64,000 nucleotides of DNA from Paraburkholderia ginsengiterrae. GTDB taxonomy: Bacteria; Pseudomonadota; Gammaproteobacteria; Burkholderiales; Burkholderiaceae. A program made the position numbers and the translations under genes. Every line of letters starts with the position of its first letter. The first letter of the stretch is position 1. The stretch is taken from assembly GCF_001645125.1 (NCBI RefSeq), contig NZ_LXKA01000098.1, positions 62,001 through 126,000 on the forward strand, in the 5' to 3' direction. This document shows positions 7,878 to 23,362 of this stretch, one piece after another. The notes under the pieces are model-generated. The model searched no databases. It was not told the DNA's origin and saw only the letters and a list, made by a program, of their open reading frames with translations.

Positions 7878-8436
7878 ACAAATCCTTAAGTTGTATTCGT
7901 GCGCCGCAGCATAGGCAGCGCGCCCCGCCCCACCTCCGCCGGCGCCTGCAGCACCGGCCGGACGCTCATTGAATGCGGGTCCTCGCAACAATCGGCTGGG
8001 ATACGCGGCCGTGCCTCATTCGGCAATGGAGACGAAGAGCACCACGGCCAGGCGCGCTTTTGACGCTTTGGGAGCGGAGATTATATGACAGCCAGCCCCC
8101 AAAACAATGCCCCCATACAACTTGATACATCGCACCGGAAGCAAAAAAACAGTGGGGGAAGCCCTGACCCATGCAAGCCTGACACAAGCTTGTGGTAATA
8201 ACGCGACTTAATCCTGCTATCTGGCGGGCGGGCTCGAGCGACCGGCCTGTGGGCAATTACAGGGAAGTTTCGGCGTAGTTTTCCGCTCGCTACAAACCGT
8301 TTCGGAATTTTCAGCGCAATTACACGAGAAAATTCCGACACCCAGATTCAATGGCATGGTCGCAAACGGGCACGCCATCCATATCGGGCAGATTTGCCGG
8401 GCATTACCTCTGCGAATCGACCTTCGGTAAAAATAA
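7878..8436. other. intergenic leader of the rml operon
   Basis: This 559-bp stretch separates rmlB from the upstream reductase gene and has no convincing coding frame. It holds a candidate sigma-70 promoter for rmlB (listed separately) and a perfect 12-bp palindrome CACAAGCTTGTG at 8183-8194. The part at 8100-8450 is more AT-rich than the flanking genes. The predicted rml transcript would have an untranslated leader of about 190 bases. Confidence 0.6.
8080..8107 (-). promoter_or_regulatory. candidate sigma-70 promoter for rmlB
   Basis: On the minus strand there is a perfect -10 TATAAT (8080-8085) and a weaker -35 TTGTTT (8102-8107), 16 bp apart. It points toward rmlB and is the best promoter-like pair I see in the gap. 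Confidence 0.45.
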
Positions 8437-18759: not shown

Positions 18760-18789
18760 AAAAAAACCCGCATCTCTGCGGGTTTTTTC
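18760..18789. terminator. bidirectional intrinsic terminator between thiD and groEL
   Basis: AACCCGC-ATCTCT-GCGGGTT forms a GC-rich stem flanked by an A-run on the left and a T-run on the right, so it can terminate both the plus-strand thiD and the minus-strand groEL transcripts. Confidence 0.88.
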
Positions 18790-18863
18790 TTTTGGGAAGC
18801 GCGCCTTGCAGCGCACTTCCCCACGCATTCCCAACTGAGCCCCGTAGCGGAGCCCAACCGGAA

Positions 18864-20847
<1,984 letters not shown>

Positions 20848-20919
20848 ACATACTCCTCTCTTGATTGAGACTGAAGAACGCTGAGAAAACCCAGCTGGCC
20901 GAGCCAACCGGCGATGTTG

Positions 20920-20946
20920 TTAGCACTCTCGTGCAGTGAGTGCTAA
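20920..20946. promoter_or_regulatory. CIRCE operator (HrcA binding site)
   Basis: TTAGCACTC (20920-20928), nine bases, then GAGTGCTAA (20938-20946): an exact match to the CIRCE consensus. It starts at the -10 box of the groESL promoter and extends downstream, so HrcA should repress initiation until heat shock. hrcA itself is not in the window. Confidence 0.97.
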
Positions 20947-20974
20947 TTATATGGACGGGTGGTGACAAATTCAA
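20946..20974 (-). promoter_or_regulatory. sigma-70 promoter of groESL
   Basis: On the minus strand a -35 TTGAAT (20969-20974) and a perfect -10 TATAAT (20946-20951) are 17 bp apart. The -10 abuts the CIRCE dyad. Confidence 0.88.
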
Positions 20975-21297
20975 GAAGCGTCGGAGAGGGGGTCTCGGAG
21001 GGGTATCGAGATTCGCTTAACTTTGAATTTTGCTCGCTTGAGCCTGAACTCCAAGGCTGCGCAGAAACGCGACCGACATGAATTATTCACAACGAAAACA
21101 ACAACTTGCGATCGCGTCACCACTTGCCTCGGAGCGCTCCTGAAGCCGGCCGCTACAACCTCACCGACCGTTGTCTGGGTGCGCATTACTGCGGTTTTCG
21201 CCTTCCCAGGGAATTCCCTATCGTCTTGTCGCCACAATAAATCAGACGAATGTAGCCAGACAACGAGGTCGAAGCTTTCAATACGTAAGGCGCGCGA
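20975..21297. other. non-coding gap between groESL promoter and araC-type gene
   Basis: This is 323 bp with no convincing gene or ribosome binding site on either strand. I see no terminator-like hairpin or repeat that I could support. Confidence 0.5.
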
Positions 21298-22287
21298 CTA
21301 CCGTTGTTCAACATGCAGATACCGGTAGTCGTTGTGCCGCATCTCCTGAGGCGTCATTTCATAGGCGCGCCGGAATGCACGGGTAAAGTCGGATGCACTC
21401 TTGAAGCCGACTGAATAGCCGACGTCCTTGATCGGCACGCCCGGAAATCGAACGAGCTCGTCAGCGGCGGCGCGCAAGCGAAGATGGCGGATATACGCAC
21501 CCAGTCCGCCCTCATGCTCGAACAGCCGATAAATCGTGCTGCGCGGAAGCCCCAGCGATTCGATGACGCTCTCGGGTGAAAGTTCGCATGTTTGCAGGTT
21601 GGTGCGGACGTACTGTCGCGCATGTTCGAACATGAGCGCGCGGTTGACCGCTCGCTTGCTGCCGCTCAACCCGGCCTCTTTCCCGAATGCGGCCACGATC
21701 AGATCAACGAGGCCGGAGAGCTTGCGATGCCCCTCCTCGAACGGCATGTACCGGAAGCTCTCGACTAGCGTCTTGGCACGCTCGACGATCAGCCGGGTGG
21801 CAGGCTCGCGCGGATCGAGCACGCGCCCGTGTATCGCCTCCGGGTCCGAGAACACGTGTCGCAACCGGTTGGCGGGCACAACGAGCGTGATGTACCGGCA
21901 CGCCTGCCGCCGCACGCGTACGGGTTGTCCGAGGTCCGTGGCAAGTATGCTGCCTCCACCCACCTGGTAATCACTGCTCCTCGCGAGCGTGGTCGCCATG
22001 TGCGCTTCGCCGTCCAGGAAGATGGTGAAACCGATGCCGCGCGCGTTATCGCGTGAAATGCGCGTGGCGGTGCGTTCGATCATGACATGATCGGTATAGG
22101 TGTCGCTGATACGAAATTCGCCGATATCGTAACGGTCGTTGATGCAGGCAAAGGGCTGTCGAACCTGTCCTCGTGACGGCACAATCTCGATAACCTGGCC
22201 AAGCTGCTCCCAATAACCCAGCAACTGCTGTTGCGGTGGCAGCCCGGACACATCGAATCGGTTATATACGATGCCATTCGCGAGCAT
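21298..22287 (-). CDS. AraC-family transcriptional regulator
   Basis: The 329-residue protein ends in a typical AraC HTH pair (about the last 100 residues): SPESVIESLGLPRSTIYRLFEHEGGLGAYIRH and IKDVGYSVGFKSASDFTRAFRRAYEMTPQEMR. The N-terminal ~200 residues resemble the AraC-binding-like domain of NphR/FeaR-type regulators (IGFTIFLDGEAHM). Inducer and targets are unknown. An in-frame ATG at 22338 is an alternative start; I prefer 22287 (MLANGIVYNRF). It is divergent from the LexA-box operon, with which it shares a ~366-bp AT-rich upstream region. Confidence 0.88.
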   Translation of the reverse strand: MLANGIVYNRFDVSGLPPQQQLLGYWEQLGQVIEIVPSRGQVRQPFACINDRYDIGEFRISDTYTDHVMIERTATRISRDNARGIGFTIFLDGEAHMATTLARSSDYQVGGGSILATDLGQPVRVRRQACRYITLVVPANRLRHVFSDPEAIHGRVLDPREPATRLIVERAKTLVESFRYMPFEEGHRKLSGLVDLIVAAFGKEAGLSGSKRAVNRALMFEHARQYVRTNLQTCELSPESVIESLGLPRSTIYRLFEHEGGLGAYIRHLRLRAAADELVRFPGVPIKDVGYSVGFKSASDFTRAFRRAYEMTPQEMRHNDYRYLHVEQR

Positions 22288-22588
22288 ATTGCGATCCCGT
22301 AGCAAAGAAGAACGATGACGCGCCCCGCCACCGCGCATCCAGTTAGCGCTTCAAATTGCGCAAGCTTAACTTAATATCGCCAATTCTCGACTGCACCGAT
22401 TCCGCGCGAATTGGTCGTGTATAACCCGTTCAAATTCCCCATTCATTCTGCATTCCGAAATTTATTGATCATTTTTCCACCGGTGCATGCGCGAGGTCAA
22501 CTGCAGCTCATCCGCGCGAACCGTAAGAAAAACGTCAGATACCGCCCGTTATCCGAAAGGTGCAATTCGAACCATAGAAACACCACAA
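22288..22588. other. AT-rich divergent intergenic region
   Basis: The stretch between the araC-type gene and the LexA-box promoter has no supported gene. It is clearly more AT-rich than its surroundings and contains AT-rich blocks around 22430-22475, as expected for a divergent promoter region. Confidence 0.5.
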
Positions 22589-22620
22589 TTGACTTGCGTC
22601 CCGGCCAAATACTGTATAAA
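22589..22620 (+). promoter_or_regulatory. candidate promoter of the LexA-box operon
   Basis: A -35 TTGACT (22589-22594) is followed by -10-like TGTATA (22613-22618, 18-bp spacer) or TATAAA (22615-22620, 20 bp). The -10 lies inside the first LexA box, the usual geometry for SOS repression. Confidence 0.6.
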
Positions 22621-22627
22621 TTTACAG
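22612..22627. promoter_or_regulatory. LexA (SOS) box 1
   Basis: CTGTATAAATTTACAG fits the LexA consensus CTGT-N8-ACAG exactly, with an AT-rich core. It overlaps the predicted -10 region. Confidence 0.85.
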
Positions 22628-22629
22628 TA

Positions 22630-22645
22630 CTGTTTTTTTATACAG
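22630..22645. promoter_or_regulatory. LexA (SOS) box 2
   Basis: CTGTTTTTTTATACAG is a second exact CTGT-N8-ACAG match, two bases after the first box and eight bases before the ATG of the next gene. The two boxes are 18 bp apart centre to centre. Confidence 0.8.
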
Positions 22646-22653
22646 GATCGGCC

Positions 22654-22935
22654 ATGAATCAACTCATCCGTATCTTGAACGACGGTGACCGCGAAACGCT
22701 TGCATGGTTGCGCAAGCATGTCGGAGACCTGCGCGTGACTGCCGCTGCGCGGCATCTGGGGAGCAACGGCAAGCCATACGTGTCGGCGGTGTGCCGCTAT
22801 CTCGGCGTACGTCCGCCCGCGCCTCGTCAGCAAAGCCGGCCGGTTGAAGACTGCACGGTCGGTGATAACTATCTTGCCCAGATCCGCCAATTGCTGGCAC
22901 AGAGAAACGAAGCGTCGTTGAAGCACCCGCGTTGA
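22654..22935 (+). CDS. unrecognised 93-residue protein under tandem LexA boxes
   Basis: I do not recognise this family. The protein starts MNQLIRILNDGDRETLAWL. The central segment VTAAARHLGSNGKPYVSAVC, ending in RYLGV, has the spacing of a helix-turn-helix, so DNA binding is plausible. The C-terminal third is polar. AGGATCGG precedes the ATG. Its promoter has two perfect LexA boxes, so it should be induced by DNA damage. It is followed after 37 bp by a second unknown gene with a strong ribosome binding site, and the two very likely form an operon. Longer in-frame starts (e.g. 22411) would translate through the promoter and are rejected. Confidence 0.72.
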   Translation: MNQLIRILNDGDRETLAWLRKHVGDLRVTAAARHLGSNGKPYVSAVCRYLGVRPPAPRQQSRPVEDCTVGDNYLAQIRQLLAQRNEASLKHPR

Positions 22936-22972
22936 CGCCGCGAGTTGCCGCGAGTCCCCAGGAGATAACAAT

Positions 22973-23362
22973 ATGATTAACGATTCCGCTCTTGATATGG
23001 ATGTCCACGACACCCATCCTGTCGCTCCCGAACGCGCACTTCGCAGCGCGTCGCTCGACCTCCAGCAGATCATCGCTACGGTCGCAGGCCGTTACCTCAA
23101 CAATGGTCGCCGGCAATACTCAAATGGCGCGCAATCACCGACCTGGCGCACGCTGCAGACAATCGACGAACAGGTCTTTGAGAATCGCGGATTCCGGGCG
23201 CGACACGATGACACAGTGCGCTCGACGTTCGTCCGGTTTGGGGACAGCCGTTTGTCCGGGATAGATCTCGACGAACCCGTCGACTGGCGACGTGACGACG
23301 ACGACTTGCCGGCCGTGTATCTGCTCGTGCGCGCATTGGTACAGGCCGACGCCACCGCGTAG
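22973..23362 (+). CDS. unrecognised 129-residue acidic protein, second gene of SOS operon
   Basis: No known family comes to mind. The protein is soluble, acidic and rich in Asp (DWRRDDDDLPAVYLL near the C-terminus), with a likely helix LDLQQIIATVAGRYL near residue 35. AGGAGA lies seven bases before the ATG, which is strong support for translation. It lies 37 bp after the 93-residue gene and should share its LexA-controlled transcript. A helper or partner of the HTH-like protein is possible but unproven. Confidence 0.65.
   Translation: MINDSALDMDVHDTHPVAPERALRSASLDLQQIIATVAGRYLNNGRRQYSNGAQSPTWRTLQTIDEQVFENRGFRARHDDTVRSTFVRFGDSRLSGIDLDEPVDWRRDDDDLPAVYLLVRALVQADATA

Follow-up and report, generated by a model that had tools for sequence, protein, structure and literature searches.

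A candidate SOS operon with tandem LexA boxes joins a CppA-like gene and a DUF2471 gene in Paraburkholderia ginsengiterrae

Two LexA-regulated hypothetical genes, hypA and hypB, were predicted in beta-proteobacteria in 2012, and the available text of that study describes one as lacking homologues outside multi-chromosome beta-proteobacteria and the other as exclusive to Burkholderia (PMC3323433). CppA, from gonococcal plasmid pJD1, has transcripts that increase in anaerobiosis, according to a report whose available text gives no function for it (PMC3032703), and a CppA relative was noted earlier in Burkholderia terrae in the available part of a genome paper (PMC4122924). Our literature search found no paper naming DUF2471; both DUF2471 and CppA are known as names, and we found a function for neither. 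Colicin-type genes carry tandem LexA operators over their promoter, an arrangement from which tight repression is expected. The operon described here, in a 64-kb stretch of P. ginsengiterrae DNA analysed as a whole (the window), likewise has two adjoining boxes over its promoter, but it differs from colicin-type systems in containing no recognised killing, immunity or lysis gene. A reading of this locus from sequence alone had called it a good candidate for an undescribed DNA-damage response module; given the 2012 prediction, the module may not be wholly undescribed. Compared by description in the available text of that study, the distribution of CppA-like and DUF2471 genes could be compatible with that of hypA and hypB, which are possibly these two families. 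The joined operon, its conserved double operator and the clamp-like tails described below did not appear in our literature search at the level of paper listings. The features of the operon are as follows.

22587..23357, + strand: unit of ~771 bp from the promoter to the end of ORF2, defined by blastn; the block is conserved and most flanks differ between species
22589..22594, + strand: TTGACT, a -35-like hexamer lying at the margin of the conserved block, by sequence
22612..22627, + strand: LexA box 1, CTGTATAAATTTACAG, exact match, 25.1 bits, conserved in homologues
22630..22645, + strand: LexA box 2, CTGTTTTTTTATACAG, exact match, 24.0 bits
22654..22935, + strand: ORF1, 93 aa, CppA-like family with an HTH-like helical core, from the ORF, a profile and a structural model
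22960..22964, + strand: AGGAG, likely ribosome binding site of ORF2, by sequence
22973..23362, + strand: ORF2, 129 aa, DUF2471 (PF10616), Pfam 32.9 bits against a cut-off of 25

Both boxes match CTGT-N8-ACAG perfectly, and they are separated by 2 bp (centres 18 bp apart), together spanning 22612-22645. By sequence, box 1 overlaps a TATAAA-like -10 element and box 2 a Shine-Dalgarno-like AGGA at 22644-22647, upstream of the ORF1 ATG. The positions of both boxes are those given by the sequence-only reading; the 93- and 129-residue ORFs and the acidity of the second product (pI 4.9) were also as it had stated. TTGACT is present in many, but not all, close homologues, and the adjoining CTTGCATCC is better conserved. 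A consensus promoter scan called no promoter on the + strand at the operon, TTGACT included.

We scored candidate sites with a matrix built from the genome's own boxes at lexA (2), uvrA-like, imuA-like (2) and splB-like genes, excluding the DUF2471 site and the recA box, which has the same sequence as box 2. With this matrix, the next-best 16-mer in the window reaches 9.1 bits, compared to 25.1 and 24.0 for the operon boxes. Exact CTGT-N8-ACAG occurs three times in the window where 0.45 is expected, and three or more occurrences arose in 1 of 100 shuffles. We judged the third, at 8247-8262, to be a chance match; its centre is GC-richer, and its matrix score is not among the ten highest in the window. 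A LexA protein with LexA_DNA_bind and Peptidase_S24 domains is encoded in the genome, where LexA boxes also precede the genes for RecA, LexA, a UvrA-type protein, a radical-SAM (splB-like) protein and two imuA-like products.

The double operator is a recurrent feature of CppA-like genes. About 147 CppA-like places were found in genomes of the family, of which 110 were examined. We counted operators at 129 distinct loci, all from this family and with the window among them (135 rows before exact repeats were merged; the partial ORF1 matches L018, L159 and L160 and L214, which lies outside the main group, were dropped). Tandem LexA boxes are present at 102 of these loci, a single box at 21 and none at six, so that one or both operators are kept in 123 of the 129. 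In 79 of the 102 tandem loci, both boxes are perfect, with a spacing of mostly 18 or 19, and at least 10 of the 21 single-box loci retain a second site with two mismatches. As a control, the tandem criterion was applied to 3336 further pieces from these loci, of which 10 passed. A search of 200 genomes for the 2-bp-spaced tandem pattern, allowing up to one mismatch, identified 38 places in 37 genomes, 26 of them at a CppA-like gene and 12 not, with no reversed-pattern control among the matches listed. The copies outside the main group (L214, L270-L274) have no box. Unlike ORF1 of the window, the pJD1 CppA gene has none within 144 bp upstream, and four further distant copies have none within 200 bp. 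The predicted operators, their conservation and the genome's own LexA make the operon look like a member of the LexA (SOS) regulon, consistent with the LexA-type control proposed initially for the two-gene unit.

The sequence-only reading had recognised neither protein, but both can be placed. Although ORF1, a basic protein (pI 10.3), has no significant Pfam or NCBIfam match, its family profile matches gonococcal CppA at 56 bits, a sequence-profile relationship echoed by distant plasmid relatives annotated 'cryptic plasmid protein A'. CppA-like relatives occur in 137 of 300 genomes of Burkholderiaceae. A broader profile matches 10 of 300 genomes drawn from the order, namely four of the same family (source genome included), one of another family (L214) and five with weak, unrelated proteins; at class level, 1 of 274 genomes matches, which is the source genome itself. 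Plasmid records contributed 28 matches. The dN/dS values of 0.10-0.23 in 16 comparisons indicate that ORF1 is under purifying selection. ORF1 appears truncated in L018.

The predicted structure of ORF1 (pLDDT 78) has helices at residues 10-22, 25-38, 43-50 and 67-88 in an HTH-like layout, in line with the HTH-like core suggested earlier, and a fold search with this model gave no significant match. Such a protein could be a secondary transcription regulator, turned on by LexA cleavage and then switching other genes or silencing its own replicon. The helical model and basic character would suit this role, as would a weak profile-profile similarity to GerE/LuxR-type HTH domains (score 16.7, where 20 column shuffles gave no more than 13.7); however, the hhalign probability of that alignment is 5.5, no fold match was significant, and the clamp-like tails of some relatives are ill-suited to a plain repressor. 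We consider this explanation unlikely.

These tails bear on the reading that we prefer, an operon acting on the replication or repair of damaged replicons. The pentapeptide QxxLF is the general clamp-binding consensus in the available text of an earlier report (PMC12309361). QxxLF or QxxLPF occurs in or near the C-terminal tails of 18 of 130 CppA-like proteins (L118, L121, L214 and the repeats L072, L200 and L204 excluded), after linkers of variable length, a count from related proteins rather than independent events and for a pattern fixed after the motif had been noticed; shuffled tails give a mean of 0.16 motifs and a maximum of 2. The longer form, QxxLPF, also binds the clamp. Neither form is present in the first 82 residues of CppA-like proteins. 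All 18 motifs fall within 38 loci of one genus (g3), a second batch of which (L220-L233) was taken after the motif had been seen and chosen by genus, not by tail, and 0 of 92 other loci have one. The ORF1 protein of the window is itself without such a motif.

ORF2 belongs to a family with LexA links of its own. Its dN/dS of 0.15-0.28 in 12 comparisons indicates that it, too, is under purifying selection; in L010, ORF2 appears broken. We examined 79 of the DUF2471 places found in family genomes. Of 88 DUF2471 matches (a count that leaves out L001-L019 and includes the repeats L023/L039, L077/L200 and L082/L204), 71 have a LexA box within ~330 bp upstream, which in three cases (L071, L082 and L204) is the operator of a preceding ORF1, and 17 have none. 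Seven of the 17 stand behind ORF1 and probably share its operator, eight form a divergent subgroup, and the remaining two are L190 and a row truncated at a contig end, L198. Proteins of the divergent subgroup (L197, L199, L202, L203, L205, L206, L207 and L209) are mostly short, at ~96 aa, and their genes lie in other contexts; we found no LexA box upstream of them. A LexA box of their own is present at most of the stand-alone DUF2471 genes examined. The window copy (L072) is a divergent second copy that follows ORF1 without a box of its own, unlike a stand-alone copy elsewhere in the source genome that has one. As judged from these upstream sites, the window operon joins two families that are separately LexA-linked. 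Because relatives of both genes carry LexA sites across many related bacteria, the operon looks like a real, uncharacterised part of the DNA-damage response.

The neighbours of these relatives offer clues to a possible function. When DUF2471 is unpaired with ORF1, the next gene is tyrosine-recombinase-like in 40 of 43 rows (L039 and L282 being the same gene and L287 being cut by a contig end), and no such gene lies within 600 bp downstream in any of the 28 ORF1-paired rows, the window included. The catalytic set of tyrosine recombinases is R-H-R-H-Y; by eye, the recombinase-like protein beside DUF2471 seems to lack several of these residues. In the source genome, outside the window, a DUF2471 gene with a LexA box is followed by a tyrosine-recombinase-like gene (L282:8586-10187), an arrangement shared by the 39 other such rows. 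ParB lies ~6 kb from the pair in the source genome, and Rep3 and KfrA genes accompanied by a ParA-like match are close by, which suggests the origin region of a secondary replicon. ParB matches are also present in L288, L291 and L308 and absent from the other seven stretches of that set.

Other copies lie beside genes for mutagenic polymerases. On a B. vietnamiensis plasmid (L293), imuA is preceded by an exact LexA box and followed in order by genes for an imuB-type polymerase, a dnaE2-type polymerase, H-NS, DUF2471 and an integrase; the 250 bp upstream of DUF2471 contain no box. A B. ambifaria plasmid (L281) has a similar order, with the two polymerase types, H-NS, DUF2471 and an integrase on a stretch that is cut upstream. 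Two of the four plasmids with the H-NS-DUF2471-integrase order are without imuB and dnaE2 upstream, and one of those two is boxed before DUF2471. In L296, the order is ORF1, DUF2471, an imuA-like gene, an integrase-like gene, a hypothetical gene and a UvrD-like helicase gene, and the sole exact AT-rich LexA box in 11 kb sits upstream of ORF1; imuB or dnaE2 relatives were not found in those 11 kb. A toxic or mutagenic function, as first considered, stays conjectural: the neighbours of relatives point to replication and repair, with mutagenic polymerases among them, but we saw no killing function.

Together with the clamp-like tails, these neighbours favour a predicted role in replication or repair, and we give an even chance to an SOS-induced two-gene operon that acts on the replication or repair of damaged replicons. 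In undamaged cells, LexA would bind the two adjoining operators and cover the -10 element and the ribosome binding site; upon damage, LexA self-cleavage would release expression of ORF1 and ORF2, presumably from one transcript. ORF1 would then act as a small, basic, HTH-like factor binding DNA or the replisome, perhaps through the clamp in relatives with the tail motif. DUF2471 would be its acidic partner; elsewhere, members of this family follow LexA boxes in the company of a tyrosine-recombinase-like gene, or are found next to genes of the imuA-imuB-dnaE2 type. Both proteins may act on replication or repair of the damaged replicon. A more far-reaching scheme, which we put forward tentatively and hold to be possible but doubtful, makes CppA-like proteins Burkholderiaceae-wide SOS effectors that restrain or redirect replication at the clamp or origin of damaged chromosomes and plasmids, makes DUF2471 a second effector associated with the imuABC mutasome as well as with recombinase-like proteins, and makes the window operon a travelling unit that joins both. 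Genes of two uncharacterised families carry LexA operators in many genomes, and in one of the families the operator is double. Relatives in both are linked by genomic position to replication or plasmid maintenance, to recombinase-like proteins or to mutagenic polymerases. Should they prove to be SOS effectors, they would be new actors in a response known mostly for classic repair genes. Gonococcal CppA now has relatives whose context can be tested.

A product that stops growth would be well served by tight tandem operators. Those of the operon would fit a SulA substitute, an inhibitor of division or replication that is expressed early and halts the cell until repair is complete. SulA (PF03846) was found in 2 of 100 family genomes, with one match above the cut-off and covering positions 40-75 of 91 only, and it was not found in the source genome, whereas an E. 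coli control was positive. However, neither protein showed similarity to a known inhibitor. In addition, the imuA-like product of L296 has a weak SulA match, and with two imuA-like genes in the source genome the absence of SulA says little; we find an inhibitor rather improbable.

The operon also behaves as a unit separable from its surroundings. In 16 related loci (L001-L016), DNA similarity to the window spans ~22587-23357 and mostly ends there. With the window, these 17 loci fall into 13 upstream and 13 downstream neighbourhood groups, compared over at most 4 kb per side (for L008, only ~290 bp downstream). The unit has thus changed place or been inserted anew; the junctions displayed showed no ends of mobile elements. 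At window positions 18760-23362, the unit adjoins groESL, as it does in L003, L004 and L012, and L018 has part of that side. Alternatively, a maintenance gene of plasmid origin might be carried along by the SOS response without any role in host repair. This would account for a unit at many sites and for a family member on gonococcal pJD1, as well as for the 3 of 10 annotated plasmid CppA-like copies that have rep or par genes nearby; none is obvious at the other seven. Against this origin stand the presence of CppA-like genes in 137 of 300 family genomes, including all 40 listed DUF2471-bearing genomes of genus g12, and the purifying selection indicated in the window's group, and we give it little credence.

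Of the homologue features anticipated at the outset, the boxes are kept, whereas the pairing is mostly lost. Among 136 CppA-like loci (repeats included), 25 are paired with DUF2471, 110 are solo and one is too short to tell; among 300 family genomes, 83 have both families, 54 only the CppA-like family, 82 only DUF2471 and 81 neither. As most CppA-like loci are without DUF2471, the two proteins need not work together, and the obligate pairing of a toxin-antitoxin module is not observed. A tightly SOS-controlled lethal pair of the toxin-antitoxin or bacteriocin type, suggested by two small genes for a basic and an acidic protein, a double operator and a unit at many sites, is very improbable given the solo CppA-like genes, the common stand-alone DUF2471 genes and the lack of a match to either protein in the PADLOC defence-system library.

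LexA-like sites also occur in other settings. Five same-genus genomes (G185:C30, G139:C120, G132:C14, G108:C36 and G030:C30) have a similar tandem site away from CppA-like genes, consisting of CTGTATGCGTGTACAG or CTGTATAGGTGTACAG, 2 bp, and then a sequence beginning CTGTTCGC. In the source genome (L022, L026, L029, L030 and L032), LexA-type boxes lie upstream of genes for a FAN1-like nuclease, a LigT-like phosphoesterase, a DUF4130 protein and a DUF5131 protein, and also upstream of one gene that matches no Pfam family.
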